Origin: Nipponacmea schrenckii
Taxonomy: Eukaryota > Mollusca > Gastropoda > Lottiidae
Assembly: GCA_030562195.1 (NCBI GenBank)
Contig: JAUJPP010000002.1
Span: 1,178,001 to 1,242,000 of the forward strand
Direction of reading: 5' to 3'
DNA length: 64,000 nucleotides
The translations under genes were made by a program, and so were the position numbers. Shown piece after piece: positions 22,680-64,000 of the stretch. Position 1 is the first letter of the stretch. Every line of letters begins with the position of its first letter. The notes below the pieces were generated by a model that made no database searches, was not told the origin of the DNA, and saw only the letters and a program-made list of their open reading frames with translations.

Positions 22680-22865
22680 CTTTTTCATCTGTTCAAATTG
22701 TAAATATTCACTTTAAATCAAATTCAATCTTGCATTTGCTGTAATATACAAATACTCATTTTGATTGAATTTGATTTACACTGAAATCAATATTGGCTTA
22801 AATTAAAAATAGGCTTACTCAGTTCATTGGTATAGTTCTGATCAAACTATTAAGTTTGAGACCGG

Positions 22866-23433
22866 TGAGGGTAAAATTCTGACTCGGCCGACTTTGCCGA
22901 CCTGCCGACTCGCATCAAAAAAAGACTTGTTGATCAAGATGAAGATTTCTCCGAAATTCTGGAATATTTCTTATCATAATCAGAAAACGAAAAATAAAAT
23001 AATATAGCCTACTAAGATCAAAGGTTTAACAATTATTTTGACATGTTCAAAGTTTTCTTTTGAAAAACTGGTAAATGAATAAACAAACCAATACGAAGTA
23101 TCCTAGTCGCAAGACAAAATCATATAACATCATATAAAACGTTTAGACCAATTCTAGTTACAGTGAGTGGACTATTCAATAGAGAAAACTGTAATTTCAA
23201 ATTAAAATAAAACCACAAATTTAATTTTGTTCTATAATATCAGAGGTCATGAAGTAATTACAGCTGTCATCCTTTTTTAGTTATTTTAAGCCCTCATTTT
23301 TGGGTTAATTAGTTCGTATTTACTTATAGAGACATTCAAGAATTTAGGAGAAATCTTCATCTTGATCAACAAGCCTTTTTATGATGTGAGTCGGCAGGTC
23401 GGCCAAGTTGGCCGAGTCGGAATTTTACCCTCA
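22866..23433. mobile_element. MITE with ~95-bp terminal inverted repeats, copy 1
   Basis: The left end TGAGGGTAAAATTCTGAC and the reverse complement of the right end TGAGGGTAAAATTCCGAC continue to match for about 95 bases with roughly ten mismatches. The 568-bp body is AT-rich and non-coding. The corresponding place in unit II (about 29775-29800) lacks it, so it is an insertion into the A upstream region. About 20 bases of the empty site are missing here, so a target duplication cannot be read. Confidence 0.85.
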
Positions 23434-23549
23434 ATTTGATTTAGATAATTAACATAGTTTGAAGAAGGTTTACTTAACTTCATGAGCATTGTTGGATAAA
23501 ATCAGTTTCAGACCGTAAAGCTTCACTACCTTCCAGACTTTTGATTGAA

Positions 23550-23980
23550 TTTGATTTTCATTAAATATATACAAATTCTACAGATTGGTTTAGGCTTACT
23601 CAGTTCATTTACTATTTATATTGCAATCAAATGATCTTGGTTAAATCTAATTTCGGAAAGCAAAATCAAACAAGGACCAATTAAACTACCCAGACTATTT
23701 GATTGCATTTGATTCACACTGAATATGTGTAATAAAACAGATTAAATTAGTATTCAGTGGCATTCAATTACAGTTTTAAACAGAAAATATAGGAAAATTA
23801 CATTCTGCTGATTGAATTTGATTTACACTGAATATATACAATTAACATTGAGGATTAAAATAGGCTTACTCAAATCATTAGAAATGTTGATTCCAATCAA
23901 ATGATCCAGATTCTATCATGTTTCATCAGACAGTAAAGCTAAACTACCCAGACCTTTTGATTGAATTTGATTTGATATAC
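23550..23980 (+). repeat. Upstream repeat blocks of the plus-strand A genes
   Basis: Diverged blocks of about 110-170 bp each contain variants of TTGAATTTGATTTACACTGA followed by GGCTTACTCAGTTCATT. Five blocks precede A1 (first near 22738; the MITE sits between the first and the rest). The same set is found before A2, A4 (29680-30330), A6 (36780-37445), A8 (41985-42670) and A10 (56650-57335). None is seen in front of the minus-strand A genes or B genes. Regulatory action is possible but unproven. Confidence 0.75.
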
Positions 23981-24064
23981 AGTACATTGATTTTAAGAGA
24001 GATTTTGAAATCAGTATCTATCATTATAGCAAGCTATTAAAGAATTTGATTAACAGAGTTCACA

Positions 24065-24072
24065 TATAAATA
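24065..24072 (+). promoter_or_regulatory. TATA box of A1
   Basis: TATAAATA within CACATATAAATATCTCGATA, 84 bases before the ATG, leaving a 5' UTR of about 50 bases if transcription starts 30 bases downstream. Confidence 0.8.
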
Positions 24073-24148
24073 TCTCGATATCTGTTCACTTGTCATTCAA
24101 TATCTCAACTTCTCTCAATAAACAAAACTTTAATATTCTAAATACAAA

Positions 24149-24421
24149 ATGGCAGCCACTTTTACTGAAAGTTATTCACATTTTGCTGTTTTAAGAAATC
24201 AAACTGAGACTCGATTATCAGATCTGACAGAATCAAAACAAACTAATGTGGGAACTACAGATATGAAGATGAGATTATCAAGACTTAAAGAAAATCTTCA
24301 ACAATTAAATACTGGAAGATACCAAAACTATTTGTTATCACCTTGTAAGACTGGTAGTCCAAGTAGAAGATATATTCCTGTAACTATTATGAAGAATGGT
24401 TTGAAATGTACAGCCTGTTAG
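24149..24421 (+). CDS. A1: family A protein, 90 aa, intronless
   Basis: I do not recognise this protein. It is soluble-looking, with no signal peptide or membrane span. Visible parts: an N-terminal F-T-E-S-Y-S-H-F (5-12), a predicted helix rich in Leu, Arg and Lys (37-55), YQNYL (58-62), then a basic tail with two minimal CDK-type sites, SPCK (64-67) and SPSR (70-73), and a terminal NGLKCTAC (83-90). The last four residues, CTAC, would formally fit a C-a-a-X box, but other family members lack that cysteine, so prenylation is doubtful. The gene stands alone with its own TATA box; its 3' flank is cut short by the tandem duplication joint. Conservation of the whole frame in seven complete intact copies in this window, while spacers drift, argues it is a real protein. 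A2 encodes the identical sequence. Confidence 0.88.
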   Translation: MAATFTESYSHFAVLRNQTETRLSDLTESKQTNVGTTDMKMRLSRLKENLQQLNTGRYQNYLLSPCKTGSPSRRYIPVTIMKNGLKCTAC

Positions 24422-26017: not shown

Positions 26018-26025
26018 TATAAATA
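26018..26025 (+). promoter_or_regulatory. TATA box of A2
   Basis: TATAAATA 83 bases before the ATG; the one-base difference from every other copy is a shortened A-run next to the start codon. Confidence 0.8.
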
Positions 26026-26100: not shown

Positions 26101-26373
26101 ATGGCAGCCACTTTTACTGAAAGTTATTCACATTTTGCTGTTTTAAGAAATCAAACTGAGACTCGATTATCAGATCTGACAGAATCAAAACAAACTAATG
26201 TGGGAACTACAGATATGAAGATGAGATTATCAAGACTTAAAGAAAATCTTCAACAATTAAATACTGGAAGATACCAAAACTATTTGTTATCACCTTGTAA
26301 GACTGGTAGTCCAAGTAGAAGATATATTCCTGTAACTATTATGAAGAATGGTTTGAAATGTACAGCCTGTTAG
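26101..26373 (+). CDS. A2: family A protein, 90 aa, intronless
   Basis: Protein identical to A1; product of the 1.95-kb duplication. Unlike A1 it retains the full 3' flank, with AATAAA at 26596-26601 about 225 bases past the stop, and it faces gene B1 tail to tail. The recent duplication means A1 and A2 would double the dosage of the plus-strand subtype, whose tail ends PSRRYIPVTIMKNGLKCTAC. Confidence 0.88.
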   Translation: MAATFTESYSHFAVLRNQTETRLSDLTESKQTNVGTTDMKMRLSRLKENLQQLNTGRYQNYLLSPCKTGSPSRRYIPVTIMKNGLKCTAC

Positions 26374-26595
26374 ACATCTGATGGTTGTAGTAACATTGGA
26401 TTAGAAAAACTAAACTGTGTTTGGAGGCCTACAGGAAGATATCAAAATATGAAAAACTCATCAGACAAGGACAGATATTGATTCACCTTAAAATATTTTC
26501 AGTAATCAAAAATCACCATGAAAGTGCAATATTTTGTTATTTATTGTTATTGTTTGTTATTGTTATAACATGTTGAATACATGTACATTTCAAGA

Positions 26596-26601
26596 AATAA
26601 A
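26596..26601 (+). promoter_or_regulatory. Polyadenylation signal of A2
   Basis: AATAAA in a segment (GAAATAAAAATACAAAATTA) kept in the 3' flank of A4 (31069-31074), A6, and the displaced flanks of A8 and A10 (near 54417 and 62553). Confidence 0.65.
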
Positions 26602-26934
26602 AATACAAAATTAAACTATTTTCTATCTTGTATATGGTTTAAACCTTTATCATTTTTGTATAAGAAGTGCCCTAGAGAAATATTAAACTGTGATAAATTA
26701 TAAACTTTGATTATAGACAACATGGTATCAATCTTTTTGTTTTACTAATACTTAAAACTTTATGGAATTTGCAATGATTTGCAACATCTATTTTACCGCG
26801 TAAAAATGTTTCCTTTTCAATAGATACTCGGTCAACTTGTTTATGGTACATTTGATTCTATTTAAGAAACATAAAACTTCAATGATGTTGATTTATTTAC
26901 AAATACTAACAATACTGTACAATACAAATGATAA

Positions 26935-27020
26935 AATTAACAAAACAATATAACAATAATATAAATAAAACAATATAACAATAATATTAATAAAACAATA
27001 TAACAATTATCATATTATCA
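26935..27020. repeat. 25-bp AT-rich tandem repeat in the B1 3' flank
   Basis: Units of ACAATATAACAATAATATTA plus TAAAA. The same array is present with different copy numbers below B2 (31425-31505) and B3 (38510-38650). Confidence 0.8.
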
Positions 27021-27048
27021 TATAATATAATGTAAAAATATAAATTTA

Positions 27049-27818
27049 CTAACACAGTGTAGATTTTAAACCATTGATAAATTTAGTTTGTAAAAAATCA
27101 TGATCATTATCACCAACATCATCATTATCATTTATATTATAAACATAAGACTGAGGTAAATAATTCTCATATTTTTTACCATGATGATAAGATACAGTAC
27201 GAGTCACACAAAATCTTGTAAAATTATTGGTACTTGGTACTGTTTCTGGATCACAAAATCTTGTAAAATTATTGGTACTTGGTACTGTTTCTGGATAACT
27301 AAATCTTGTGAAATTATTGGTACTTGGTACTGTTTCTGGATCACTAAATCTTGTGAAATTATTGGTACTTGATACAGTTTCTGGATCACTAAATCTTGTG
27401 AAATTATTGGTACACAGTACTGTTTCTGGATCAGTAAATCTTGTGAAATTATTGGTACACGGTACTGTTTCTGGATCACTAAATGTAGTAGTAAAATTAT
27501 TGGTAATTGGTATTGTTTCTGAATCACTAACTGTAGTAAAGTAATTGTTACAGCTACTTTGATTCACTAAGCTTAGAAGTTGTTTCTCTAACAGAATTTC
27601 TTTCATTTTTAAATTATCATTGACCATTTTAATATTCTGTCTCTTTTTTTGAATTTCTTTTAATCTTCTATCAATTTTCTTATTGACTAATTTCTTCTTG
27701 AATTCAACTGTATCAGTGTCTACAACTTGACAAAACTTGTTACTTTTACAAATAACTGGAGTTTCAGAAAAGAAACTTGTATTACAGGCATTATTAGTTC
27801 TCTAGATTTTGGAAACAT
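27049..27818 (-). pseudogene. B1: family B repeat-protein gene with a 16-bp deletion
   Basis: Compared with B2 and B3, a 16-base deletion at about 27798-27800 removes codons near residue 8 and shifts the frame, so the ancestral ATG (27816-27818) reads only about 30 codons to a stop. The rest stays open: from an internal Met at 27627 a 192-residue protein could be made, with part of the charged helix, five full 15-residue repeats (TNNFTRFSDPETVPS type), the YENYL motif and terminal NGLKSTLC. The TATA box is intact at 27895-27902. It is either a young pseudogene or an N-terminally shortened gene; the unbroken 3' part suggests the damage is recent. Confidence 0.75.
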
Positions 27819-28683: not shown

Positions 28684-28953
28684 TCAGCAGATTGTTGTTT
28701 TTCTTCCATTTCTCACAACTGTAACAGGAATATATCTTCGTGGACTTCCAGTCTTACAAGGTGATAACAAATGATTTTGGTATCTTCCAGTATTTAATTG
28801 TTGGAGATTTTCTTTAAGTCTTGACAATCTCATCTTTTTTTCTGTAGTTCCTGCATCAGTTTTGTTTGATTCTGTGAGATCTGATAATCTCGTTTCAGTT
28901 TGATTTCTTAAAACAGCAAAATGTGAATAACTTTCAGTAAAAGTGACAGCCAT
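28684..28953 (-). CDS. A3: family A protein, minus-strand subtype, 89 aa
   Basis: Differs from A1 in the middle (SNKTDAGTTEKK in place of SKQTNVGTTDMK) and in the tail, which has one residue fewer and ends SPRRYIPVTVVRNGRKTTIC. The site SPRR keeps a CDK-like consensus. The last four residues TTIC lack the CaaX cysteine of the plus-strand subtype but keep the terminal Cys. It is transcribed in the same direction as B1 and diverges from A4 with about 1.55 kb between the start codons. Confidence 0.87.
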   Translation of the reverse strand: MAVTFTESYSHFAVLRNQTETRLSDLTESNKTDAGTTEKKMRLSRLKENLQQLNTGRYQNHLLSPCKTGSPRRYIPVTVVRNGRKTTIC

Positions 28954-29039: not shown

Positions 29040-30424
29040 TGAACATTATTTACTCATGTCATCTAGATGGTAATAATGACACTGTTTCAATATTCATAGC
29101 TTACTTTATTATTAAAGATTATACTTTATTATTGATTAGATTACACATCAATAATTAAATCACTTATCTGATTGATTACTTGAGTTAATCAAAGTATTTA
29201 TAGTTAATTGGATACTAAATGTAGATCTCAAATCTCAAATTGCTAGTATAATATTTTACATTTTGGTGAAATGATTTTCAAATAAATTTTAAATTTACAT
29301 CATTAAATGTTGGAAGTTAAAAAAGAATCTGCTTCAAGTTCTCTACTTTCAAAAACTATAAATATAGTATACATTTGATCTGTTAAAAAATAACACTGAT
29401 TTAGGAATTGTGTGTTTTTAATTTAGAATAATAACATTGATAACAATAACAATATATATATAACAAAATATTGCACTGTGCCTGTCTATCTTCTGGATCA
29501 TGTTTGATTAAAATAGAAAAACATTTCTCTTTTTCCTTGCAACACCAACAAGAAGACACAAATACATGTATACAACAATATATCTTTTTAAACCTTTTTC
29601 ATCTGTTTAAATTGTAAATATTCACTTTAAATCAAATTCAATCTTGCATTTGCTGTAATATACAAATTACTCATTTTGATTGAATTTGATTTACACTGAA
29701 ATCAATATTGGCTTAAATTTAAATAGGGTTACTCGGTTTATTGGTATAGTTCTGATCAAACTATTAAGTTTCAGACAGCCTAAACCAATGTTGATGAAAT
29801 TTGATTTAGACTGATTAACATAGTTTGAAGAAGGTTTACCTAACTTCATTATTAATCTTGGTTAAAATCAGTTTCAGACAGTAAAGCTACACAACTTCCA
29901 GACTTTTGATTGAATTTGATTTTAATTAAATATATACAAATTATACAGATTGAAATAGGCTTACTCAGTTCAATTACTATTTATATTGCAATCAAATGAT
30001 CTTGGTTAAATCTAATTTCGGAAAGCAAAATCAAACAAGGACCAACTACCCAGACAATTTGATTGCATTTGATTTACACTGAATATGTGTAATTAAACAG
30101 ATTAAATTAGCATTCAGTGGCATTCAATTACAGTTTTAAACAGAAAATATGGGAAAATTACATTCTGCTGATTTAATTTGATTTACACTGAATATATACA
30201 ATTAAGATTGAAGATTAAAATAAGCTTACTCAGATCATTAGAAATGTTGATTCCAATCAAATGATCCAGATTCTATCACGTTTCATCAGACAGTAAAGCT
30301 AAACTACCCAGACCTTTTGATTGAATTTGATTTGATATACAGTACATTGATTTTAAGAGAGATTTTGAAATTAGTATCTATCATTATAGCAAGCTATTAA
30401 AGAATTTGATTAACAGAGTTCACA
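29040..30424. other. Divergent spacer between A3 and A4
   Basis: It holds the A3 upstream flank up to about 29580 and then the A4 upstream repeat blocks. It is the MITE-free version of the upstream region and defines the empty site for the MITEs at 22866 and 24820. Confidence 0.7.
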
Positions 30425-30432
30425 TATAAATA
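30425..30432 (+). promoter_or_regulatory. TATA box of A4
   Basis: TATAAATA 84 bases before the ATG. Confidence 0.8.
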
Positions 30433-30508
30433 TCTTGATATCTGTTCACTTGTCATTCAATATTTCAACTTCTCTCAATATTATTAACTTTAATATTCTA
30501 AACACAAA

Positions 30509-30781
30509 ATGACAGCCACTTTTACTGAAAGTTATTCACATTTTGCTGTTTTAAGAAATCAAACTGAGACTCGATTATCAGATCTGACAGAATCAAAACA
30601 AACTAATGTGGGAACTACAGATATGAAGATGAGATTATCAAGACTTAAAGAAAATCTTCAACAATTAAATACTGGAAGATACCAAAACTATTTGTTATCA
30701 CCTTGTAAGACTGGTAGTCCAAGTAGAAGATATATTCCTGTAACTATTATGAAGAATGGTTTGAAATGTACAGCCTGTTAG
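30509..30781 (+). CDS. A4: family A protein, 90 aa, plus-strand subtype
   Basis: One residue differs from A1 (Thr for Ala at position 2). Just past the stop, 30814-30873 is a decayed second copy of the last 60 bases of the gene, including another in-place TAG, which shows a local slippage-type duplication of the 3' end that is also present in A6. AATAAA follows at 31069-31074. The gene is convergent with B2. Confidence 0.88.
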   Translation: MTATFTESYSHFAVLRNQTETRLSDLTESKQTNVGTTDMKMRLSRLKENLQQLNTGRYQNYLLSPCKTGSPSRRYIPVTIMKNGLKCTAC

Positions 30782-30813
30782 ATTGGTATTCTAGAGATAC
30801 CACTGTAAGTTAA

Positions 30814-30873
30814 AGTAGAATATATATTCCTATAACTATTATAAAGAATGGTTTGAAATGTACAGCCTGTTAG
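30814..30873 (+). repeat. Duplicated 3' end of A4
   Basis: Repeats the segment from AAGTAGAAGATATATTCCTG through the terminal TAG with several substitutions; not translated because the main stop precedes it. Confidence 0.85.
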
Positions 30874-31068
30874 ATTGGTTTTCTAGAGGTGTTTGGTAGC
30901 CTACAGGAAGATATCAAAAATATGAAAAACTCAACAGACAAGGACAGATATTGATTCATCTTAAAATAATTCCAGAAATCAGAAATCACCATGAAAGTGC
31001 AATATTTTGTTATTTATTGTTATTGTTTGTTATTGTTATAACATGTTGAATACATGTACATTTTAAGA

Positions 31069-31544: not shown

Positions 31545-32471
31545 CTAACACAGTGTAGATTTTAAACCATTGATAAATTTAGTTTGTACAACATCATGAT
31601 CATTATCAACAACATCATCATTATCATTTATATTATAAACATAAGACTGAGGTAAATAATTCTCATATTTTTTACCATGATGATAAGATATTGTACGAGT
31701 CACACAAAATCTTGTAAAATTATTGGTACTTGGTACTGTTTCTGGATCACAAAATCTAGTAAAATTATTGGTACTTGGTACTGTTTCTGGATCACTAAAT
31801 CTTGTGAAATTATTGGTACTTGGTACTGTTTCTGGATCACTAAATCTTGTGAAATTATTGGTACTTGGTACTGTTTCTGAATCACAAAATCTTGTGAAAT
31901 TATTGGAACACGGTACTGTTTCTGGATCACTAAATCTTGTGAAATTATTGGTACTTGGTACTGTTTCTGGATCACAAAATCTAGTAAAATTATTGGTACT
32001 TGGTACTGTTTCTGAATCACAAAATCTTGTGAAATTATTGGAACACGGTATTGTTTCTGGATCACTAAATCTTGTGAAATTATTGGTACTTGGTACTGTT
32101 TCTGGATCACTAAATGTAGTAGTAAAATTATTGGTAAGCCTACTTGGTATTGTTTCTGAATCACTAACTGTAGTAAAGTAATTGTTACAGCTACATTGAT
32201 TCACTAAGCTTAGAAGTTGTTTCTCTAACAGAATTTCTTTCGTTTTTAAATTATCATTGACCATTTTAATATTCTGTCCCTTTTTCTGAATTTCTTTTAA
32301 TCTTCTATCAATTTTCTTATTGACTAATTTCTTCTTAAATTCAACTGTATCAGTTTCTACAACTTGACAAAACTTGTTACTTTTACAAATAACTGGAGTT
32401 TCAGAAAAGAAACTTGTATTACAGGCATTATTAGTTTCACAATAGAAATTATCTCTAGATTCTGGAAACAT
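31545..32471 (-). CDS. B2: family B protein with 15-residue repeats, 308 aa
   Basis: Longest intact B member; family not recognised. Order: N-terminal F-P-E-S-R-D-N-F (2-9) in a Cys-rich stretch (C11, C17, C29, C35), a Lys/Arg-rich helix likely to be coiled coil (45-90), a spacer with CSCNN, ten units of a 15-residue repeat (112-264, eight of them exact in length; consensus TNNFTRF[SC]DPETVP[SC]), KKYENYL (267-273), an Asp/Asn-rich acidic patch (280-292) and the terminal NGLKSTLC (301-308). Each repeat contains S-D-P-E, a CK2-like acidic phosphosite. NFT sequons also recur, but there is no signal peptide, so glycosylation is unlikely. The 45-bp DNA repeat also keeps other frames open on both strands (31677-31880, 31700-32164, 31723-32181); these are shadows. 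The start is supported by the TATA box 84 bases upstream and by B3. Confidence 0.85.
   Translation of the reverse strand: MFPESRDNFYCETNNACNTSFFSETPVICKSNKFCQVVETDTVEFKKKLVNKKIDRRLKEIQKKGQNIKMVNDNLKTKEILLEKQLLSLVNQCSCNNYFTTVSDSETIPSRLTNNFTTTFSDPETVPSTNNFTRFSDPETIPCSNNFTRFCDSETVPSTNNFTRFCDPETVPSTNNFTRFSDPETVPCSNNFTRFCDSETVPSTNNFTRFSDPETVPSTNNFTRFSDPETVPSTNNFTRFCDPETVPSTNNFTRFCVTRTISYHHGKKYENYLPQSYVYNINDNDDVVDNDHDVVQTKFINGLKSTLC
31700..32130 (-). repeat. 45-bp coding minisatellite of B2
   Basis: Ten in-frame copies of a 45-bp unit, higher than in B1 (27205-27490) and B3 (38845-39125), which have about five full units each. Copy-number change in steps of 45 bp keeps the reading frame. Confidence 0.92.
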
Positions 32472-33268: not shown

Positions 33269-33538
33269 TCAGCAGATTGTTGTTTTTCTTCCATTTCTCA
33301 CAACTGTAACAGGAATATATCTTCGTGGACTTCCAGTCTTACAAGGTGATAACAAATGATTTTGGTATCTTCCAGTATTTAATTGTTGGAGATTTTCTTT
33401 AAGTCTTGACAATCTCATCTTCATATCTGTAGTTCCCACATTAGTTTGTTTTGATTCTGTCAGATCTGATAATCTAGTCTCAGTTTGATTTCTTAAAACA
33501 GAAAAATGTGAATAACTTTCAGTAAAAGTGGCTGCCAT
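33269..33538 (-). CDS. A5: family A protein, 89 aa, hybrid of the two subtypes
   Basis: The first half reads like the plus-strand subtype (SKQTNVGTTDMK, with GCAGCCACTTTTACTGAAAG at the start) while the second half and the tail (NHLLSPCK, SPRRYIPVTVVRNGRKTTIC) are the minus-strand subtype. Ser replaces Ala at residue 13. The switch lies between codons 40 and 60. The simplest reading is gene conversion from a neighbouring inverted A gene. The frame is intact and the promoter is standard. Confidence 0.87.
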   Translation of the reverse strand: MAATFTESYSHFSVLRNQTETRLSDLTESKQTNVGTTDMKMRLSRLKENLQQLNTGRYQNHLLSPCKTGSPRRYIPVTVVRNGRKTTIC

Positions 33539-33622: not shown

Positions 33623-33801
33623 TGTGAACATTATTTACTCATGTCATCACTGTGTCAATATTCATAGCTTACTTTATTATTGATTAGATTACACATCAAT
33701 AATTAAATCACTTATCTGATTGATTACTTGATTTAATCAAAGTATTTATAGTTAATTGGATACTAAATGTAGATCTCAAATCTCAAATTGCCAGTATAAT
33801 A

Positions 33802-35729
33802 CAGTACAGCAACTTTATAACTTATTTTCGTCGCCGGCGACGGTCTGCAGTTCGTCGGCAAAATAAGCTCAGACGGTCGCCAGTTCGTCGGCGACGGTCT
33901 GCAGACGGTCGGCAGTTCGTTGGCGACGGTCTGCAGACGGTCGCCAGTTCGTCGCCAGTTCGTTGCCGAATATTTGACGACCGTCGTCAAAATTTCTATA
34001 ATCTTTGTGTACATCATGACGTCAAGACTTTGCTTGACAACAGACTAGTTTCTAAATATAGCTACATGTATTGTAGGTCTACAACGCAACTTTCTTTTTT
34101 TTCTACCAACAATGGTTCAGAAACTTTAAATATTACTTTTCATATTTTTCACAATTGCATTCTAATGATCGGTAACTAGTCTACGAAAGACATTTCCCTG
34201 GTCAGCCTGATTAACAAGGAATTTTGCTTTACCTCACAATGTCATTCAAATCGACCTTAGCATTAATTATTGAGATTGTTTCAATTGTGAAAAAAATATA
34301 CAAAGAGAAATATTGTCAAACTGAGCTTGCTATTCGTTCTGATATTTTACCGTAGGTCAACTCATAAAAAGCGTTTCCGGATAACCGATGTTGAAATTCT
34401 AACCGGTTGCCCGTGAAATCCTAGTATTAGTAGTTACTATTACACCTGAACAAATTCCGATATCAGAACCTGAGACTGGATTCATTACAACGTTAGTAGT
34501 GATAATCCTATTTCAATATGGTGCCCAAAGAACTTAAAAGTAGTGCTTGGATTGACGCTTTCAAACGAAACTAAGCCCAAATGTATCTTGGCACGCAGTT
34601 ACGAAGAAGTAGGCGTGGTTTCTCAAAACGTCAATCCCGATATCGTTGTTTTACCATTGGATGATGAAAATAGAACAAAGCGTTTATTGGTTATAATTTA
34701 TACTCATTCATATGCATGAGAATGAAATATACCAAAGTAGGTGGGTCTCATAGAGTTATTTATAATAATAGGCGGTGTCAGCAAAATGATGAATGTCTAC
34801 CTATTAATATTATAATAGAGAAAAAAAAGAAGAATAAATATTAATAATCCGTCACTGAGCGCAGTCGGAACTGGTTAAGCATCATTGCTATATTGACCGC
34901 TGTAGATTTAGGCTGGGTTGGGCGTCGTGATTTTAAATATATCCCCCGTGATAAGTTTGAATTTAAAATTATAAAAATAGAGCCGGTGGCCCGAGAATTA
35001 ATTTATTATCCGAGGTCGTAGGCCTAGTCCCGAAAAGCCATGGTAAAAGTGTTGTTACACATTCTTTTCATCGAATTGAGAATCTAGTTTGATATCCTAG
35101 TTTCTATGGTTAAATAATCTGTTATAGGCTTTACATTTCTACGTTCTTTGGTTGGACACCCCAAGTGCCCCAACACGCATTCCGTGGAGGGTTGAAGTAT
35201 AGGCTCCACCCATTGTTCTCCTCTTGTCATTGTTCTCGTTGTTTAATCTTTTGACGAAAAAGAAGATTGATGAAGCCTTTAATGGGCACATTCTGCATAT
35301 CAACTCAAAACTAAGGTTTTTTTCCATGCATGTGTACATAATAAAAATTTGATGACATGTATTTCAAAATAATAGGCTTAGCCTAGTAGTAGTGGCGCAG
35401 GCCTAGCGCATTGTTAATTTCGCTCATGAAAGAATTATGATTCTTGGCGTCAAAAGATGAAGATTTGGATCGTGACGTGATGGTCATTAAATTATGACAT
35501 CAGTCATCAGCTCTTCTTGACAACGGAAAGCGATGGATTTTCTTTCTGGAAGTGGCGACAAACTGGCGACCGTCTGCAGACGGTCGCCAGTTCGTCGGCA
35601 ACAATTTGACGACGGTCGGCAAAATTTTCGACGACCGTCGCCAGTTCGTCGCCAGTTCGTCGTCAAATATTCTGCCGACCATCTGCAGATGATCTGCAGA
35701 TAAAGATAAGTTATAAAGTTGCTGTACTG
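33802..35729. mobile_element. 1.93-kb inverted-repeat DNA element with TA target duplication
   Basis: The ends begin CAGTACAGCAACTTTATAAC on both strands and TA flanks each side. The empty site is visible in the homologous unit-III segment near 41550-41560, so the boundaries are exact. TA duplication and a CAGT start suggest the Tc1/mariner group, but no transposase is encoded. Inside both ends are GC-rich arrays built from CGACGGTCTGCAGACGGTCG and CGCCAGTTCGTCGG (33828-33975 and 35560-35690), including a perfect 32-bp palindrome at 35561-35592 centred on CTGCAG. The core (34000-35500) resembles nothing else here. Confidence 0.85.
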
Positions 35730-35872
35730 TATTTTACATTTTGGTGAAATGATTTTCAAACAAATTTTAAATTTACATCATTAAATGTTGGAAGTTAAAA
35801 AAGAATCTACTTCAAGTTCTCGCCTTTCAAAGACTGGAAATAAAGTATACATTTCATCTGTTAAAAAATAAC

Positions 35873-36500
35873 CTAATATTAAGCCAAAACATAGAAGATT
35901 GCAGTGCGAGAGCTTTTGGATGGACCAGTTGGACACAGTATATCCGAATGGCTTAAACCTTCAGCATGACAACCAAATAATCCCCTTCATCACCACCTAT
36001 AATCATACTGCTACCAACGCATCGGTAATTTTAAAAATTACTATAAAACTCTACAACAGAAATATCCACAGGTTTATACTAAAAGAATTGTTACCGCGTT
36101 CAAGAGGAATAAAAATCTTAGTAACCATTTAGTCCATGGCAGACTTGAACCACTGCAAAACGTTTTTTCAAATCCATAACTGTTTTATATATATATATAT
36201 ATCACATATTACCTTAAATAATTATTAGTCAAATGTCATCAAGCATACACTTTAGTTTATTATAGGTCAATGGGCTCCAGTATTTGAACAGGATAATGAG
36301 GACCAAAATTAAAAAGTTATTTTGTTTTTTTAGATTTGGATTTCAGAACCGTTGAAAGATCAAGACTTCCATACTTTTCATGATTATAACCTTAACCATT
36401 TTTAACTATTGTTTACACTAACTATCTCATCCTATAATGTTGTTTCTTACTTCATGACCTAGGCCAGTGCTTTCTTGAGAATACTATTCTCATCTCACCC
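35873..36500 (+). mobile_element. Insertion with a retroelement-like coding fragment
   Basis: Units I-II and III run ...AAAAAATAACACTGATTTAGG without a break, whereas here about 630 bases separate AAAAAATAAC from TAACACTGATT, so TAAC may be the target duplication. A frame from about 35899 to 36132 reads ESFWMDQLDTVYPNGLN, a phrasing I associate with the C-terminal parts of animal reverse-transcriptase elements. It is too short to classify. A (TA)n run lies at 36186-36202. Confidence 0.55.
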
Positions 36501-37621: not shown

Positions 37622-37969
37622 ATGGCAGCCACTTTTACTTAAAGTTATTCACATTTTGCTGTTTTAAGAAATCAAACTGAGACTCGATTATCAGATCTGA
37701 CAGAATCAAAACAAACTAATGTGGGAACTACAGATATGAAGATGAGATTATCTTCAACAATTAAATACTGGAAGATACCAAAATCATTTGTTATCACCTT
37801 GTAAGACTGGAAGTCCAAGTAGAAGATATATTCCTGTTACTATTATGAAGAATGGTTTGAAATGTACAGCCTGTTACATTGGTTTTCGAGAGGTACCACT
37901 GTAAGTCCAAGTAGAAGATATATTCCTGTAACTATTATAAAGAATGGTTTGAAATGTACAGCCTGTTAG
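37622..37969 (+). pseudogene. A6: broken family A gene
   Basis: Codon 7 is a TAA in place of GAA, a 17-base deletion near 37752 shifts the frame, and the normal TAG has become TAC, leaving the duplicated 3' end (about 37900-37969) to supply the next TAG. Three independent lesions make it a pseudogene. Confidence 0.92.
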
Positions 37970-47880: not shown

Positions 47881-49290
47881 TTTATACGCCCACGTGAAAT
47901 TTTGATGAAACTTTGTAGGAGAGTTTGTTATAACTCAAGGATGAACCCTATTGAAAATCAGCGAAATCGAAAAATATTTAATATGAGTTTTAGTCCTTGT
48001 TTTTGAAAGCGCGTTCATTTTTAGCTTTTAAACACTCTTGAAAGAATAATTCCTAATGGATTTTGATGAAACTTTGCTTAAATATTTGTTATCACCCAAG
48101 GATGACCCCTATTGAAAATCAGTTAAATCGAAAAATATTTAGTGTTAGTTATTGCCCTTGTTTTTGAAAACGCGTTCAACTTTTTGGCTTATAAACACTC
48201 TAGAAGGCACAATTCTTGATCAATGTTGACAAAACTAGCTAAAATTGTTTGTTATCAACCAGGAATGAGCCCTATTGAAAATAAAAAATATCAAAATATA
48301 TCTTATATGAATTATTGCCCTTGTTCTTTAAAACGTGTTCGATTTTGGTCTCGTAAATATTCTACAGGGCACAATTCTTGACCGATTTTGATGAAACTTG
48401 GTGTGAGAGTGTCATTTTACTCTAGGATAAATTCTTTTGAAAATCAGCGAGATCGAAAAATATTTAGTATGAGTTATTGCCCTTGTTCTTGAAAACGCAT
48501 TCAATTTTAGCTTGTAAACACTCTAGAAAGAACAATTCTTGATGGATTTAGATGAAACTTGATTTGAGTATTTGTTTTCACCCAAGGATGAACCCTATTG
48601 AAAATCAGATAAATCGAAAAATATTTAGTACAAGTTATTGCCCTTGTTCTTGAAAGCACGTTTAATTTTAGCTTGCAAACACTCTAGAAAGAACAATTTT
48701 TAATGGATTTTGATGAAACTTGGCTTTAGTATTTGTTATCTCCCAAGAATGAACCCTATTAAAAATCGAAAAAAATATTTAGTACAAGTTAAAGCCCTTG
48801 TTTTTGAAAACGCGTTCAATTTTAGCTTGTAAACACTCTAGAAAGAACAATTTTGAATGGATTTTGATGAAACTTGGCTTTAGTATTTGTTTTCTCCCAA
48901 GGATGAACCCTATTGAAAATCAGATAAATCAAAAATATTTATTGTCAGTTATTGCTCTTGTTCTCAAAGACGCTTTCAACTTTTGGCTTGTGATCACTCT
49001 AATCATTCATTTTTGACAAAACTCGCTGAAATTGTTTAATATCAACCAAGGATGAACCCTATTAAGAATTAAAAATATCAAAATATTATTAAGGGTGAAC
49101 CCTATTGCAAATCATAAAAAAAACAAAAAATATGTAATGAGTTGTTATTAGGTACAATTCTTGACAGTTTTTAATGAAACTAGAGACCCTAGAAAAAAAG
49201 TATATGGTGGAAGGTTGAATATTTCATTCTACTAATTGTTACCTTACTGAAAAGTTTTTATTCAAAATCAATGCTGCCAGTGGGCGTATA
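47881..49290. mobile_element. TATACGCCCAC element with ~180-bp tandem units
   Basis: Bounded by TTTATACGCCCACGTG and CAGTGGGCGTATA, inverted to one another. Between them are about seven diverged units with GATTTTGATGAAACTTGGCT, GGATGAACCCTATTGAAAAT and TTATTGCCCTTGTTCTTGAA. It is followed by a CTTGCC/GGCAAG hairpin at 49294-49308. The frames at 47824-48006 and 48798-49016 are repeat shadows. Confidence 0.8.
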
Positions 49291-51207: not shown

Positions 51208-52358
51208 CTAGAATTGCTTACAATTATGAACGTATTTCGAGAGCCTTAAAATATTATGTAGGCTAAATTTGCAATTACCTACATCTAGACAATATATTGA
51301 ATATCATTTGACCTAGTTTTCAAAGTCATAAAATAATTAGGTCACACCTTCCGTAACGGTTAATGATGGCGAAAATATGAAAATTATCAATTTTTGCTGT
51401 CTTTAAGTACACTTAACTCTATGAATTTTTTAAGTAAGCCAAATTAAAAAATATCTACTTGTAGACAATATATTGAATATTATTTGACCTAATTTTCAAG
51501 GTCATAGATTAAGTGGGTCACACCTTCCGTACCCGTTAAAGTGACCTAATTTTGAAAAAATCGAAATTTAAATAATTCGAAAGAAAATACGAAATTCGAA
51601 AATCGGTCTCCAAGAAAAGGTAGATAATGATCCATTGTATCTATGTGCTAAATTTCATCAAAATCGGTCTATCAGTAGTGTCTGAATTTCGGATTTAAGA
51701 ATTGTAACGAAAATTCAAAATGGCGGCCGATATGGCAGCTTGACCTAATTATTTAGGTCAAATCAATTACTATTGACAAGTTATTTATAAAACAGTTTTC
51801 ACTTTTCACCTAGCAGTTATAGACCGGAAGTTACGTAATTACGTCATTTGAGGCTAAACCGGAAGTGGAATTTTTATTTTCACATTTTTTCAAAAATTAT
51901 AAACATATCGCCTATCAACTGGTAAAGTTTCAAAATTTTACCATTTATATTAAAGGAGAAATCACGGTCTGAAATTTTTGCCGATGACCCTTGAATATTG
52001 AATTGCAAATCGTGGGTAAAATATTTAGCCTAATTGCATAAAACCTATAATTGTTAGTTGACAAATACATTGAAGTTTTCAAATCTGAAAATCCGGTCAA
52101 AATCGAACTGAAAATAAACTTGCTAAAGAAAAAAAAACCTGAACTTCCGGTTCTCACTTCCTGTCAGAGATAGAACTTCCGGTTTTGTTTTATTTGATAA
52201 TAGAAATCATTCTAAGATCAACTGTAGATTTAGAATTTCTGCACCTTTTACCAGTTTGTCTGCAAACTCATCCAAGAATTACAAAAAAAAAAAAAAAAAA
52301 AAAAAAAATAAAATAATCCGAACGATTACAATACGTTTTCGACAAAGTCGAAATACGT
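51208..52358 (-). mobile_element. H3: third Helentron-like family
   Basis: On the minus strand the 5' end ACGTATTTCGACTTTGTCGA opens a palindrome (52330-52358). The 3' end is a perfect 5-bp stem with 4-base loop, AATTG TAAG CAATT, followed directly by CTAG (51208-51211). A subterminal ACGTATTTCG lies at 51230-51239. It has no coding frame. Body copies in the opposite orientation are at 59714-59924 and 59952-61023. Confidence 0.75.
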
Positions 52359-52496
52359 AATAATCCGAACGAAAACAAAGCGTGACAAATTTTATTTGCC
52401 AAGCAATAATCCGAACGAAAACAAAGCGTGACAAATTTTATTTGCCACGTAATAATCCGAACGAAAACAAAGCGTGACAAATTTTATTTGCCACGC
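52359..52496. repeat. 46-bp tandem repeat, three units
   Basis: Three exact-length copies of the H1 end unit, forming the right border of the nest against A8. Confidence 0.95.
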
Positions 52497-52676
52497 AATA
52501 ATGTGGGAACTACAGATATGAAGATAAAATTATCAAGACTTAAAGAAAATCTTCAAAAATTAAATACTGGAAGATACCAAAACTATTTGTTATCACCTTG
52601 TAAGACTGGTAGTCCAAGTAGAAGATATATTCCTGTAACTATTATGAAGAATGGTTTGAAATGTACAGCCTGTTAG
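52497..52676 (+). pseudogene. A8, 3' part
   Basis: Continues A8 from AATAATGTGGGAACTACAGA to the TAG, with the normal tail (SPSRRYIPVTIMKNGLKCTA then Cys). The open frame 52428-52676 fuses repeat sequence to it and is not a gene. Confidence 0.9.
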
Positions 52677-54474: not shown

Positions 54475-55340
54475 TTTTTATACGCCCACATGGAAATGTG
54501 AACGTATATTGCCGTCGCCCCTGTCCGTCGGTCCGTCGACATTTGTTGTATCCACGATAGAGGCTACAGTTTTTATCCAATCTTAATGAAACTTGGTATA
54601 CATGTATATATAGATGATATCTCGGTCAAGTTCGAAAATGGAAATTATTGCATGAACGGTTTTTGAGTAATTGCACTTGACTTAGTAAAAACGCTTCAAA
54701 TTTGGTTTGTATCCATAATAGAGGCTACAGTTTTTATCCGATATTAATGAAACTTGGTATACATGTATATGTTGATGATATCTCGGTCAAGTTCGAAAAT
54801 GGAAATTATCGCATGAATGGCTTTTGAGTTATTGCCTTGACTTAGTAAAAACGCATCAAATTCGGGTTGTATCCACAATAGAAGCTACAGTTTTTATCCG
54901 ATCTTAATGAAATTTGGTATACATGTATATATTGATGATATCTCAGTCAAGTTCGAAAATAGATATAATCACATGAGCGGTTTTTGAGTTATTGCCCTTG
55001 ACTTAGTAAAAACGTGTCAAATTTCGGTTGTATCCACAATAGAGGCTACAGTTTTTATTCGATCTTAATGAAACTTGGTATACATGTATATATTGATGAT
55101 ATCTCGGTCAAGTTCGAAAATAGAAATAATCGCATGAGCGGGTTTGAGTTATTGCCCTTGACTTAGTAAAAACGTGTCAAATTTGGGTTGTATCCACAAT
55201 AGAAGCTACAGTTTTTATCTGATCTTAATGAAACTTGGTATACATGTATATATTGATATCTCGGTCAAGTTCGAAATAGAAATAATCGCATGAGCGGTTT
55301 TTGAGTTATTGCGCTTGACTTAGTAAAAACATGCCAAATT
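54475..55340. mobile_element. TATACGCCCAC element, five ~160-bp units, in place of a B gene
   Basis: Opens TTTTATACGCCCACATGGAA, then GCCGTCGCCCCTGTCCGTCG, then five tandem units with CTTAATGAAACTTGGTATAC and GAGTTATTGCCCTTGACTTA. Array sequence stops at AACCTTTATCATTTTT and resumes at ATTAATTTTGAATATTTGTA, so about 1.8 kb of the standard unit, including all of B, is missing here. Confidence 0.85.
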
Positions 55341-55657
55341 TATATTAATTTTGAATATTTGTAAATTAGTCTCCATTGTGTCCCCTTCAATTATGAGAAC
55401 CAGACACTTGAATTTCATTGTGATAAATGCTATAGTGGAAATTCCTCAGTTGAAAATAAAAAGTTGATAGAAATAAATAACAGGTTTAACTATATTGAAG
55501 ATTTATTTTCAAATAAATAACAATATATATGATAACAATTAAGACAACAATTAAGATAACAATGTCAAACAATAACAAAGTAACATTTCTAGGGTTTAAT
55601 TAGCACTAAATCTTCTTGTGATTAAATTCTATAGAATTTGTTGTCTGTCTATTTCTC
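55341..55657. other. 3' flank of A9
   Basis: Homologous to 32945-33268; TTTATT near 55500 may be the A9 polyadenylation signal on the minus strand. Confidence 0.5.
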
Positions 55658-55927
55658 TCAGCAGATTGTTGATTTTCTTCCATTTTTCACAACTGTAACA
55701 GGAATATATCTTCGTGGACTTGCAGTCTTACAAGGTGATAACAAATGATTTTGGTATCTTCCAGTATTTAATTGTTGGAGATTTTCTTTAAGTCTTGACA
55801 ATCTCATCTTTTTTTCTGTATTTCCTGCATCAGTTTTGTTTGATTCTGTGAGATCTGATAATCTCGTTTCAGTTTGATTTCTTAAAACAGCAAAATGTGA
55901 ATAACTTTCAGTAAAAGTGGCTGTCAT
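55658..55927 (-). CDS. A9: family A protein, minus-strand subtype, 89 aa
   Basis: Intact. Like A3 in the middle (SNKTDAGNTEKK) but starts MTATF and ends ASPRRYIPVTVVKNGRKSTI plus Cys. The change of Gly-Ser-Pro to Ala-Ser-Pro keeps the S-P-R-R site. It is the only complete intact gene in the invaded part of the array past 40 kb, which makes selection on it, or recent duplication from an intact donor, likely. Confidence 0.86.
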   Translation of the reverse strand: MTATFTESYSHFAVLRNQTETRLSDLTESNKTDAGNTEKKMRLSRLKENLQQLNTGRYQNHLLSPCKTASPRRYIPVTVVKNGRKSTIC

Positions 55928-57511: not shown

Positions 57512-57783
57512 ATGACAGCCACTTTTACTGAAGTTATTCACATTTTGCTGTTTTAAGAAATCAAACTGAGACTAGATTATCAGGTTTGCTAGAATCAAAA
57601 CAAAATAATGTGGGAACTACAGATATGAAGATAAAATTATCAAGACTTAAAGAAAATCTTCAAAAATTAAATACTGGAAGATACCAAAACTATTTGTTAT
57701 CACCTTGTAAGACTGGTAGTCCAAGTAGAAGATATATTCCTGTAACTATTATGAAGAATGGTTTGAAATGTACAGCCTGTTAG
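57512..57783 (+). pseudogene. A10: broken family A gene
   Basis: Carries the same one-base deletion as A8, giving a stop at codon 15, and GGTTTGCTAGAATC in place of AGATCTGACAGAATC. It is otherwise full length and not interrupted, so it shows the pre-insertion state of A8. The frame from 57586 is the unshifted remainder, not a gene. Confidence 0.9.
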
Positions 57784-58434: not shown

Positions 58435-59213
58435 AGATAGCTTGCCAGGCAAGGTAACATACGCCCACTGATAGCTTTGATTGTAAAAGTAAAAGTCCAA
58501 TTACAGCTGGTTCCTGATTTACAAGGAACTTGGAAGTTAACTATATTGTATTGCATTCAGTAAAAAAATCAAAAAGTATAAAGGCAATTTGAAGGTAAAT
58601 GTGGGCTTTATGCCCTTCAAAAAAAAAAAAAAATAACTTACATATTCTGATGACTATTTACTTACTATAATTGGTCATGTTCTTACTTATTGAGTATTAA
58701 ATTAATCATTCTTAGATGGGTAATCATAATGTTGTAGGTTTAGCACACCTGGAAAAATAGAGTAAATTTAATTAACATGTAACAAATTATTTAAGAATTT
58801 TTGGTTTTACATTTTGTGAACTGGATTTTTAATTACCGGTATGTTAATAAAAATCTTCTATGAAGTAAGTTTATAGCTCCAGCTGGGAATCTATATTAAC
58901 AAAATCAAACTTCAATACTTACCAAGCATATGCTGTTATGTTGCATAGGAGCATTCTTACTATAACTTTTTTTTCTTTGTCAGAGTTTTGTATATATAGA
59001 AAGTAGTATATAAGATTAGTAGTATATCTTTTTTTCATTGCTATTTTTTACATAGCTTCAATTAAGAAATAAATTGAAGATGGTATCACATCTTTTAAAA
59101 ATTTGCTTCTGATTTCATCATCTTTTAAAAATTTGCTTGTGTTAGTAGAATTGTTGATTTACTTTTTCTTATTTGGACAGTACTGGATATAATGTCCATA
59201 TCTTCCACAAAAA
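58435..59213. other. Unassigned sequence next to the gap
   Basis: Starts with GCTTGCCAGGCAAGGTAA and CATACGCCCACTG, the reverse of the border at 49280-49310, so it begins at the edge of a TATACGCCCAC element. The rest is AT-rich with a poly-A run (58620-58633); no gene is seen. Confidence 0.5.
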
Positions 59214-59713
59214 NNNNNNNNNNNNNNNNNNNNNNNNNNNNNNNNNNNNNNNNNNNNNNNNNNNNNNNNNNNNNNNNNNNNNNNNNNNNNNNNNNNNNNN
59301 NNNNNNNNNNNNNNNNNNNNNNNNNNNNNNNNNNNNNNNNNNNNNNNNNNNNNNNNNNNNNNNNNNNNNNNNNNNNNNNNNNNNNNNNNNNNNNNNNNNN
59401 NNNNNNNNNNNNNNNNNNNNNNNNNNNNNNNNNNNNNNNNNNNNNNNNNNNNNNNNNNNNNNNNNNNNNNNNNNNNNNNNNNNNNNNNNNNNNNNNNNNN
59501 NNNNNNNNNNNNNNNNNNNNNNNNNNNNNNNNNNNNNNNNNNNNNNNNNNNNNNNNNNNNNNNNNNNNNNNNNNNNNNNNNNNNNNNNNNNNNNNNNNNN
59601 NNNNNNNNNNNNNNNNNNNNNNNNNNNNNNNNNNNNNNNNNNNNNNNNNNNNNNNNNNNNNNNNNNNNNNNNNNNNNNNNNNNNNNNNNNNNNNNNNNNN
59701 NNNNNNNNNNNNN
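59214..59713. other. Assembly gap (500 N)
   Basis: Exactly 500 unknown bases, a round size that suggests a placeholder. Frames that cross it are meaningless. Confidence 0.98.
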
Positions 59714-59924
59714 AGATAAGTGTACTTAAATACAGCAAAAATTGATAATTTTCATATTTTCGCCATCATTAACCATTACGGAAGGTGTGACCTAATTATT
59801 TTATGACTTTGAAAACTAGGTCAAATGATATACAATATATTGTCTAGATGTAGGTAATTGCAAATTTAGCCTACATAATATTTTAAGGCTCTCGAAATAC
59901 GTTCATAATTGTAAGCAATTCTAG
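59714..59924 (+). mobile_element. H3, 3' end fragment
   Basis: Ends CTCGAAATACGTTCATAATT, then GTAAGCAATTCTAG, the H3 terminal hairpin plus CTAG, followed by a T-run. Confidence 0.8.
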
Positions 59925-61023: not shown

Positions 61024-61032
61024 TTTTTATTT

Positions 61033-62495
61033 TTTAATTTTTTGGGAAGCTCGCTAGGCCAAACGGAAAAAGATAGACTATTTCTGTTTTCACCAACGGT
61101 TTTTATATGGGCTGGAATCAAAAATGAATATCTAACATGAAATTTTCGCTAACCCGAAAGTGGCTAATTGCATAATATGCAAATAAGATTTCAAGCTAGC
61201 TCGGGCCCTAATAGTCGCATCGGTCTGAAATTTACAGGATATAGATAGATAGGCAGCGCGATTAAAACTACATCATCAAAATTTTTTGATCACTTCTGGT
61301 TTGGGCGTGGGGACTTCCGGTTTTTTCGTCTCATGTCGGGCGACCCTGCTTCCGATGTAATTCAAGATTCTAAACAAAATTAGTATATTTTAGCTATACT
61401 AAATGATTTTAATCCCCTGAGATGAAGAAAAATTAAATTGAATGTTGCGCATGCGCAGTTTTCAAAAATGGCAAATTTTCTTAAAAATTTAATAAGTCCG
61501 CCAATTATTAACCGTTTTTTATGATTTTGGTGTTTATCGAAACCTTGATACTTTATCTAAAAAATGTTGGAAACAGAATTTTGATTTTCGAATTTGAATT
61601 TTTTTTATGCCCGTTCGAATTTTTCGAAAATTTAAAACTCTATATCTCGTGACCTTGACCTTAAATGACCTTGACATTTGAGATGTAGAATGTCATTGAC
61701 CTCAGCTGTCTATAGATGTGCTGATATTGCATGACAAATATTAACTTCCGGTTTTATAGCCCACCGAAATCTGACTATTTTGCAATTTTGGATGGTTATG
61801 TTACACTTTCGGGCTCTAATGTTCGGATCGATCTGAAATTTACAGGATATAGATAGATACGCAACACAATTAAAAATATATCATAAAAATTTTTTGATCA
61901 CTTCCGGTTTGGGCGTGGGGACTTCCCTTTTTTTTTTTTATCTCATTTCAGGCGACCCTACATCCCATGTAATTCAAGAATGTAAGCAAAAACAGTACAT
62001 TAGCTATACAAAATAATTTGCATCCCTCGAGAAGAAAAAAATTCCAATTGCTAATAAAATTTATTTATTTTTTTGTAAAATTTTTGCATACAAATTCAAA
62101 AAATATCTCTTTATAAAGCTGTGAATTAGCAAATTATCACATAGCTTGAATTTTCTCTCTATGTTAATTACAACCAAAGTTACAATATAATGTTTAAATT
62201 TGAATATAGAGAGTTTAAATTTCATGACAAATTGACATCTTACTACCTACTTAAATTTTAGTTTGGAATTTATGTAAATATCCTACCGAAATCTTAGACA
62301 TGTACAAAAATCTAATTAGGAACTGATAGTAGAAACTTATAGTAGAAAAAATTGCCTATATAGCGGAAAGTTTACGCTTACAATTGTAGGCTGAAAAGTA
62401 CCGGAATTGAAAGCTAGCAGGTTAGAAGTTTCAAAATGTTCGAAATCCATGGGATAACGCACAGTTGCCACGCTCGGAGCTGTTCACAGTTCTAG
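61033..62495 (+). mobile_element. H1 copy, 5' end missing
   Basis: Matches 52890-54358 from TTTTTTGGGAAGCTCGCTAG to CACAGTTCTAG and then re-enters array sequence (TTATTTATTG). Together with 57949-58434 it probably represents one H1 locus split by rearrangement or by the assembly. Confidence 0.8.
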
Positions 62496-62612
62496 TTATT
62501 TATTGTTATTGTTTGTTATTGTTATAACATGTTGAATACATGTACATTGTAAGAAATAAAAATACAAAATTAAACTATTTTCTATCTTGTATATGGTTTA
62601 AACCTTTATCAT
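62496..62612. other. Array 3' flank of A10, displaced
   Basis: Homologous to the flank after A2 and A4, including AATAAA near 62553. Confidence 0.7.
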
Positions 62613-63640
62613 TTTTATACGCCCACATGGAAATGTGAACGTATATTGCCGTCGCCCCTGTCCGTCGGTCCGTCGACATTTGTTGTATCCACGATAGAGG
62701 CTACAGTTTTTATCCAATCTTAATGAAACTTGGTATACATGTATATATAGATGATATCTCGGTCAAGTTCGAAAATGGAAATTATTGCATGAACGGTTTT
62801 TGAGTAATTGCACTTGACTTAGTAAAAACGCTTCAAATTTGGTTTGTATCCACAATAGAGGCTACAGTTTTTATCCGATATTAATGAAACTTGGTATACA
62901 TGTATATGTTGATGATATCTCGGTCAAGTTCGAAAATGGAAATTATCGCATGAATGGCTTTTGAGTTATTGCCTTGACTTAGTAAAAACGCCTCAAATTT
63001 GGGTTGTATCCACAATAGAGGCTACAGTTTTTATCCGATCTTAATGAAACTTGGTATACATGTATATATTGATGATATCTTGGTCAAGTTCGATAAAAGA
63101 AATAATCGCATGAGCGGTTTTTGAGTTATTGCCCTTGACTTAGTAAAAACGCGTCAAATTCGGGTTGTATCCACAATAGAAGCTACAGTTTTTATCCGAT
63201 CTTAATGAAATTTGGTATACATGTATATATTGATGATATCTCAGTCAAGTTCGAAAATAGATATAATCACATGAGCGGTTTTTGAGTTATTGCCCTTGAC
63301 TTAGTAAAAACGTGTCAAATTTCGGTTGTATCCACAATAGAGGCTACAGTTTTTATTCGATCTTAATGAAACTTGGTATACATGTATATATTGATGATAT
63401 CTCGGTCAAGTTCGAAAATAGAAATAATCGCATGAGCGGGTTTGAGTTATTGCCCTTGACTTAGTAAAAACGTGTCAAATTTGGGTTGTATCCACAATAG
63501 AAGCTACAGTTTTTATCTGATCTTAATGAAACTTGGTATACATGTATATATTGATATCTCGGTCAAGTTCGAAATAGAAATAATCGCATGAGCGGTTTTT
63601 GAGTTATTGCGCTTGACTTAGTAAAAACATGCCAAATTTA
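62613..63640. mobile_element. TATACGCCCAC element, six ~160-bp units, in place of a B gene
   Basis: Same position and ends as 54475-55340, but with six units instead of five (unit starts near 62697, 62860, 63018, 63180, 63344 and 63505). Confidence 0.85.
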
Positions 63641-63957
63641 TATTAATTTTGAATATTTGTAAATTAGTCTCCATTGTGTCCCCTTCAATTATGAGAACCA
63701 GACACTTGAATTTCATTGTGATAAATGCTATAGTGGAAATTCCTCAGTTGAAAATAAAAAGTTGATAGAAATAAATAACAGGTTTAACTATATTGAAGAT
63801 TTATTTTCAAATAAATAACAATATATATGATAACAATTAAGACAACAATTAAGATAACAATTCAGATAACAATAACAAAGTAACATTTCTAGGGTTTAAT
63901 TAGCACTAAATCTTCTTGTGATTAAATTCTATAGAATTTGTTGTCTGTCTATTTCTC
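63641..63957. other. 3' flank of A11
   Basis: Matches 55341-55657 with small changes (GATAACAATTCAGATAACAA near 63855). Confidence 0.6.
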
Positions 63958-64000
63958 TCAGCAGATTGTTGTTTTTCTTCCATTTTTCACAACTGTAACA
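63958..64000 (-). CDS. A11: family A gene, C-terminal codons only
   Basis: The window ends inside the gene. The last 13 codons and TGA match the minus-strand subtype, ending KTTIC as in A3 and A5. Whether the rest is intact cannot be seen. Confidence 0.65.
   Translation of the reverse strand, partial: VTVVKNGRKTTIC

Follow-up and report, generated by a model that had tools for sequence, protein, structure and literature searches.

A single-locus tandem array of three predicted genes, A1, A2 and B, in the limpet Nipponacmea schrenckii

We analyzed a 64,000-nucleotide stretch of the genome of the limpet Nipponacmea schrenckii (contig JAUJPP010000002.1, positions 1,178,001 to 1,242,000, from a 399-Mb assembly of 1093 contigs), here called the window, and found a tandem array of about 51 kilobases (kb) whose unit consists of three predicted intronless genes, A1 on the plus strand followed by B and A2, both on the minus strand. 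In window coordinates, which are used throughout, the array runs from 22.7 to 73.4 kb; the window end falls inside it, and the last 9.4 kb were taken from the adjoining contig sequence. We consider it probable, at roughly 0.55, that this is a lottiid-restricted, single-locus array of predicted genes sharing the placement of their TATA box and a C-terminal tail, likely kept in multiple copies for high output of two proteins predicted to be intracellular.

Layout and confinement of the array

A self-comparison of the window with blastn gave 107 matches of at least 250 bases, far beyond chance, and the tandem array proposed in a preliminary description of this DNA is therefore real. These matches include satellites and other repeats besides the units, and identity among the units ranged from 81 to 99%. 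The preliminary description placed the end of the array at the end of the window (64000), which was too short, and spoke of a single gene A on both strands; the plus- and minus-strand copies are in fact two subtypes, A1 and A2.

We name each copy by its start. Four of the seven A1 starts, all on the plus strand, are intact: 24149-24421, 26101-26373 and 30509-30781, each encoding 90 amino acids, and one at 65777, past the window end. The first of these lies within a duplicated stretch of about 1.95 kb, 99.6% identical to that of the next copy. The other three are broken. A1 37622 (37622-37966) has a stop at codon 7 and a frame disturbed further on; A1 42843 lacks one base relative to other copies and is separated by a 9.6-kb insertion into a 5' part (42843-42935) and a 3' part (52497-52676); and A1 57512 (57512-57783) has a one-base loss identical to that of A1 42843. 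The five plus-strand starts listed in the preliminary description (26101, 30509, 37622, 42843 and 57512) were all present with the same leader, as were two further ones, at 24149 and, beyond the window, at 65777. There are six A2 starts, besides a fragment. Five are intact, namely 28684-28953, 33269-33538 and 55658-55927 on the minus strand (89 amino acids each), a gene that enters the window with its 3' end (63958-64000, minus strand) and starts at 64227, and a copy starting at 70964; the sixth, at 41007-41258 on the minus strand, has a broken frame. B is represented by five copies, three of them open from start to stop: 31545-32471 (minus strand, 308 amino acids, with the most 15-residue repeats of any copy), 38687-39430 (minus strand, 247 amino acids) and B 69719, whose stop comes one codon later than in the other open copies. 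B 27818 (27049-27818, minus strand) is broken near its start, where 16 bases are missing relative to other copies and an inner ATG leaves 192 amino acids open, and B 72697 is also broken. The earlier count of two intact B genes and five broken copies in the window (A1 37622, 42843 and 57512, A2 41258 and B 27818) stood. Against the seven complete A genes claimed, we counted six that are complete and intact within the window; another, A2 64227, is cut by its end.

The order A1(+), B(-), A2(-) is kept in the four forward units that retain B (B at 27.0, 31.5, 38.7 and 69.0 kb). It does not hold in the units of A1 42843 and A1 57512, which are without B and have satellite (including a 161-base repeat) and other repeats in its place. 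A1 and B are convergent, A2 and B share a strand with A2 upstream, and A2 and the next A1 are divergent, with about 1.55 kb between them where there is no insertion. The array ends in an inverted, broken pair of an A2 fragment and B (71.8-73.4 kb), in which A2 is still upstream of B. Successive A1 starts are 1952, 4408, 7113, 5221, 14669 and 8265 bases apart, a wider range than the spacing of about 4.4-4.6 kb first reported with insertions removed; the larger distances contain insertions. A fixed gene order in a unit repeated at one locus is the arrangement of a tandem array that evolves in concert.

We also searched the whole genome for further copies. All 20 matches to the A protein lay in the array or on an unplaced scaffold, C1027. 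With 26101-27100 as a DNA query there were 41 matches, 25 of them in these same two places, and the other 16 covered only an A+T-rich spacer repeat (query 803-948, 71-80% identity). For the B protein, of which 128 of 153 candidates were scored, 8 of 80 matches were the array copies, and the remaining 72, with identities of 16-40%, covered the 15-residue repeats and the margins of that region. Because of these distributions we regard the array as a single locus and not a dispersed element; neither A nor B showed the genome-wide dispersal of a transposable element. Scaffold C1027 (10,185 bases) carries an A1 with a stop at codon 7, as in A1 37622. The region 33.5-37.9 kb is matched by four stretches of the scaffold at 94.5-99.6%, but two other units fit the A1 part of the scaffold about equally well or better, and the scaffold has extra sequence as well. 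Most probably it represents either this region in the other haplotype or a copy that was left unplaced. Separately, the weak matches of the DNA and B protein searches included five pairs on contig C3 that were each 29,626,336 bases apart, so that this contig possibly holds one stretch of about 30 Mb twice, perhaps as an assembly duplication.

Predicted proteins and their relatives

A1 (90 amino acids, C-terminus GLKCTAC) and A2 (89 amino acids, C-terminus GRKTTIC or GRKSTIC) are basic 10-kDa proteins with isoelectric points (pI) of 9.7 and 10.1, while B 32471 is a 35-kDa protein with a pI of 5.2. B contains a 15-residue repeat (DPETVPSTNNFTRF, with S or C) whose copy number varies between genes, with 10, 7, 6 and 5 occurrences of NNF in four copies. 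Among the three intact B copies, differences in repeat number are always of whole codons. A tail, NG-x-K-x-T-x-C, is common to A1, A2 and B. When the A1 and B tails were anchored at the stop, 6 of 8 residues matched (chance about 2e-6 by composition), and their DNA was 79% identical over 24 bases, a value equaled in none of 100,000 shuffles. At low confidence, A is predicted to be mostly helical, with helices at 6-30, 37-55 and 57-62 and a short terminal hairpin in its AlphaFold model, and B to have a helical, perhaps coiled-coil N-terminus (a long helix in the low-confidence model), followed by the variable repeats and an acidic stretch near the end. Neither protein start is strongly hydrophobic, so secretion of A and B is unlikely.

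A search of about 5.77 billion proteins with B residues 1-95 found four relatives (E 7e-42 to 4e-38), all unnamed models of Lottia gigantea, which belongs to the lottiids: LOTGIDRAFT_173841, 173842, 173848 and 176735. Searching with LOTGIDRAFT_173841 returned the same four models only (513 candidates). Three of them are listed under a 419,472-base contig and one under a 3719-base contig. They are 81-83% identical to B residues 1-95 and have in common with array B the N-terminal region, the same 15-residue repeat and a similar C-terminal tail, although their repeat region is shorter. Residues 17-58 are invariant in all seven aligned rows (three intact copies and four L. gigantea models), and the broken B 27818 differs there at one residue. 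In a tree of the B N-terminal region with five of our own rows and four from L. gigantea, the two species formed separate clades (support 100/99). This species-wise grouping, with copies closer within a species than between species, is as in concerted evolution; because only one L. gigantea A sequence was found, the tree rests on B.

That A sequence is the N-terminal part of LOTGIDRAFT_173841, which is joined to B in an order matching that of the array, where A2 is upstream of B. The join is probably one of gene prediction: each of the other three B models begins with MFPES, as the intact copies do. In the A part, 64-68 of 81-82 residues are identical to the array copies, and VTVVR and the histidine at GRYQNH are shared with A2. 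To judge from this one sequence, the split between A1 and A2 may predate that between the species. A alone had no relative at E <= 1 among 6 candidates, in a search that skips proteins much longer than the query and for a protein so short that its models may be unannotated. The locus tags of the four L. gigantea models were not mentioned in a full-text literature search, and the titles and abstract openings retrieved from the literature contained no description of A1, A2 or B. Within these searches the genes are undescribed, as first supposed.

Repeated intronless frames, and the mobile-element-like pieces that lie inside the array, might instead indicate a mobile element or a virus-derived repeat. 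We consider this highly improbable. The array locus and one related scaffold account for all the copies, and no mobile-element family matched A or B. The preliminary description had itself named a transposon-protein match as a result that would speak against its proposal; searches of A1, A2 and B against Pfam and NCBIfam gave nothing at a curated cut-off and no transposase or reverse transcriptase. Below the cut-offs there were weak family rows only: DUF7647 (E 0.13), SHCBP_N (0.27), Spectrin_Anc-1_2 (0.082), Malt_amylase_C (0.1), MG280 (0.57) and uppS (0.096). Pattern scans of a viral contig collection picked out 175 stretches for A and 18 for B, among which no relative was confirmed, and PHROG matches were weak and to functionally unannotated families, with lowest E values of 0.008 (A1), 7.7e-5 (B, on the repeats) and 0.0019 (LOTGIDRAFT_173841). 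A transposon or virus origin was rejected on these grounds of confinement and lack of a family or viral-contig match. No solved structure matched A or B at E <= 10. A fold search with the A model gave 153 matches at E <= 10 and none at E <= 0.001; the best 50 of the 153 were largely ribosomal proteins and were not used as evidence.

Promoters, homogenization and constraint

We compared the promoters of 18 starts (7 A1, 6 A2 and 5 B). TATAAATA begins 84 bases 5' of the ATG in 17 of them and 83 bases 5' in one, those of B included, and the TATA-driven layout of intronless open frames seen earlier was thus borne out, with a TATA box at a fixed place in all 18. In A1 30509, for example, the box is ATATAAATATC at 30424-30434 on the plus strand. 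Of 19 occurrences of the string ATATAAATATC(C/T) in 84 kb, 18 are at array genes or the A2 fragment. A leaders also have an initiator-like TCATTC, called such by its likeness to the initiator consensus, at -56 in 12 of 13 and at -55 in one, 28 bases 3' of the first base of the TATA box. In register, A and B leaders were 47% identical over 100 bases (32 of 5000 shuffles as good; best other offset 46%); without the TATA box they were 43% identical over 74 bases, which 307 of 5000 shuffles equaled and another offset exceeded at 47%. AATAAA or ATTAAA was present within 400 bases 3' of each of 14 stops examined, which may be chance in such A+T-rich DNA. In the inverted A2 fragment of the terminal pair (L009:7759-7842), an A2 tail comes shortly 3' of a TATA box.

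Bases -45 to -1 of A1 30509 are 100% identical to those of A2 33538 and A2 55927 and 84% identical to those of A1 24149 and A1 65777; its leader is thus of A2 type. In turn, codons 28-42 of A2 33538 are identical to those of A1 30509, whereas the last codons of this A2 copy are still A2-like (69%). From these identities we infer gene conversion between inverted A1 and A2 copies, with the leaders and codons 28-42 as likely tracts, and we suggest that unequal crossing-over together with this conversion would homogenize the array. As a further observation on A1 30509, its last codons are duplicated directly 3' of the stop (30721-30888).

A1 and A2 are under constraint relative to each other. Over 20 pairs, which are non-independent, the ratio of nonsynonymous to synonymous differences per site (pN/pS) was 0.32 when pooled, and the corresponding ratio of substitution rates (dN/dS) was 0.22-0.38 per pair; Fisher's exact test on three chosen pairs gave p values of 4.6e-5, 0.0012 and 0.011. 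A dN/dS near 1, which the preliminary description said would count against it, was therefore not seen between the subtypes.

Several results weigh against reading the array as a set of functional genes linked by promoter and tail. Six of the 18 array starts are broken. Within the subtypes, where there are few changes, pooled pN/pS was 0.81 (A1, 6 pairs) and 0.58 (A2, 10 pairs), and divergence between aligned units was about equal in coding and non-coding sequence, so that recent copies may be drifting. None of the five B leaders has the initiator-like TCATTC of A. When A1 and A2 were each aligned locally to the C-terminus of B without anchoring, 24 and 25 of 1000 shuffles did as well, and a profile comparison of A with B aligned the last 8 residues only, with 2% probability. 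Outside the tail we found no A/B homology (749 and 478 of 1000 shuffles as good for A against the N-terminal part of B), and homology over the whole body was rejected, since the profile comparison and the shuffles leave the tail alone standing. The AlphaFold models were poor (mean predicted local distance difference test score 58.7 for A and 39.4 for B), and the coiled coil is weak, with heptad scores as good in 25 (B), 67 (A1) and 48 (A2) of 500 shuffles.

Another reading is that of a neutral tandem amplicon, once-functional duplicates now drifting, with no dosage role. Equal gene and spacer divergence fits such drift, and it fits recent homogenization too; the within-subtype ratios and the share of broken copies (3 of 7 A1, 2 of 5 B and 1 of 6 A2, not counting the A2 fragment) point the same way as drift. 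We nevertheless regard this explanation as rather unlikely, because twelve copies are still open, the intact B copies have changed repeat number without losing frame, A1 and A2 are constrained and L. gigantea has several B models as well.

Somewhat less probable still, in our estimate, is a germline ampliconic or selfish locus, in which copy number would rise through transmission gain or by blocking rivals in gametes, as in Stellate-like systems, and not through a need for dosage. The multiple and partly broken copies, with relatives found in one genus only, would suit it, as would the inverted terminal pair, the likely conversion between oppositely oriented genes, and the opposite charges of A and B (pI 9.7-10.1 against 5.2), which could be those of two interacting parts. 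Set against this are the invariance of B residues 17-58 across the three intact copies and the four L. gigantea models, B 27818 differing at one residue, and the constraint between A1 and A2; each is more readily explained by a conserved function than by an arms race.

Other features and a proposed role

Several insertions interrupt the array. The stretch 33802-36500 has no match in the neighboring unit except for about 140 spacer bases (near 35735-35872) and is probably two insertions. The first, at 33800-35740, has G+C-rich inner repeats and short inverted ends, is absent from the neighboring unit and looks like a non-autonomous DNA transposon. An open frame at 39635-40120 (plus strand) matches a reverse-transcriptase zinc finger below the cut-off (26.7 bits against 27.5); it is an insertion like a long interspersed nuclear element and stands outside the gene set. 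Tandem arrays of a 161-base unit lie at 47899-49001, inside the 9.6-kb insertion, and at 54545-55341 and 62682-63639, both where B has been lost; they may resemble the 160-base satellites of mollusc Helitron-like elements. A distant relative of this unit occurs at 18121-18743 in the opposite orientation (66-70% identity). The insertion that splits A1 42843 also has a 46-base tandem repeat in two places, one internal (47081-47266) and one at its end (52355-52502). A 99-amino-acid open frame in the spacer between A2 and A1 is open in two units (42151 and 56820); we treated it as chance, because it is broken in the remaining matching spacers. The array region includes a run of unknown bases at 59192-59719 (500 N in the window), so that content there may be incomplete. 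Upstream of the array, at 9487-11202 on the minus strand, is a single-frame Frizzled receptor gene (571 amino acids, with Fz and Frizzled domains).

Animal histone gene repeats resemble the array in layout: both are intronless, with more than one kind of gene in a tandem unit of fixed order, TATA boxes and homogenized copies. They differ in sequence. No histone family matched A1, A2 or B at E <= 1, and an Rfam scan gave no match at the gathering score, so that the window has no histone 3' stem-loop by that measure; nor did the histone stem-loop consensus match within 400 bases 3' of 14 stops. The likeness to a histone repeat drawn earlier thus holds for layout and concerted evolution and not for sequence, and overall the earlier observation was confirmed and its interpretation partly supported. 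Among lineage-restricted proteins, the ciliary-band genes trochin and lophotrochin are specific to spiralians and conserved across spiralian phyla, with no similarity to trochin detectable outside them (PMC7441323). Compared by description, A and B are alike in being lineage-restricted but differ in reach, their relatives having been found only in Lottia.

By analogy with histone genes, the array would be kept in multiple copies to make much of A and B, which are predicted to act inside the cell. Through their common C-terminal tail both would bind a single partner, or A would be joined to B, while the oppositely oriented A1 and A2 genes would convert each other as unequal crossing-over homogenized the copies. 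Our best guess, close to the germline or early-embryo product guessed at in the preliminary description, is a short burst of expression in the germline or early embryo, since intronless, high-dosage TATA genes would suit fast transcription. A more specific version, which we offer as speculative and fairly unlikely, is a limpet-specific, histone-like dosage array in which the unlike proteins A and B, made from matched promoters, assemble through the shared tail into a structure made in bulk in the germline or in the early spiralian embryo, with A1 and A2 interconverting.

To our knowledge, few animal gene sets other than histone and RNA genes are fixed-order tandem repeats of unlike genes under concerted evolution. 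Limpet embryos are used in laboratory work. If limpets do keep an orphan gene set in this way, the set would offer a clean test case for when animals need gene dosage, and also for how unlike proteins gain a common tail and matching promoters and how genes restricted to one taxon become entrenched.

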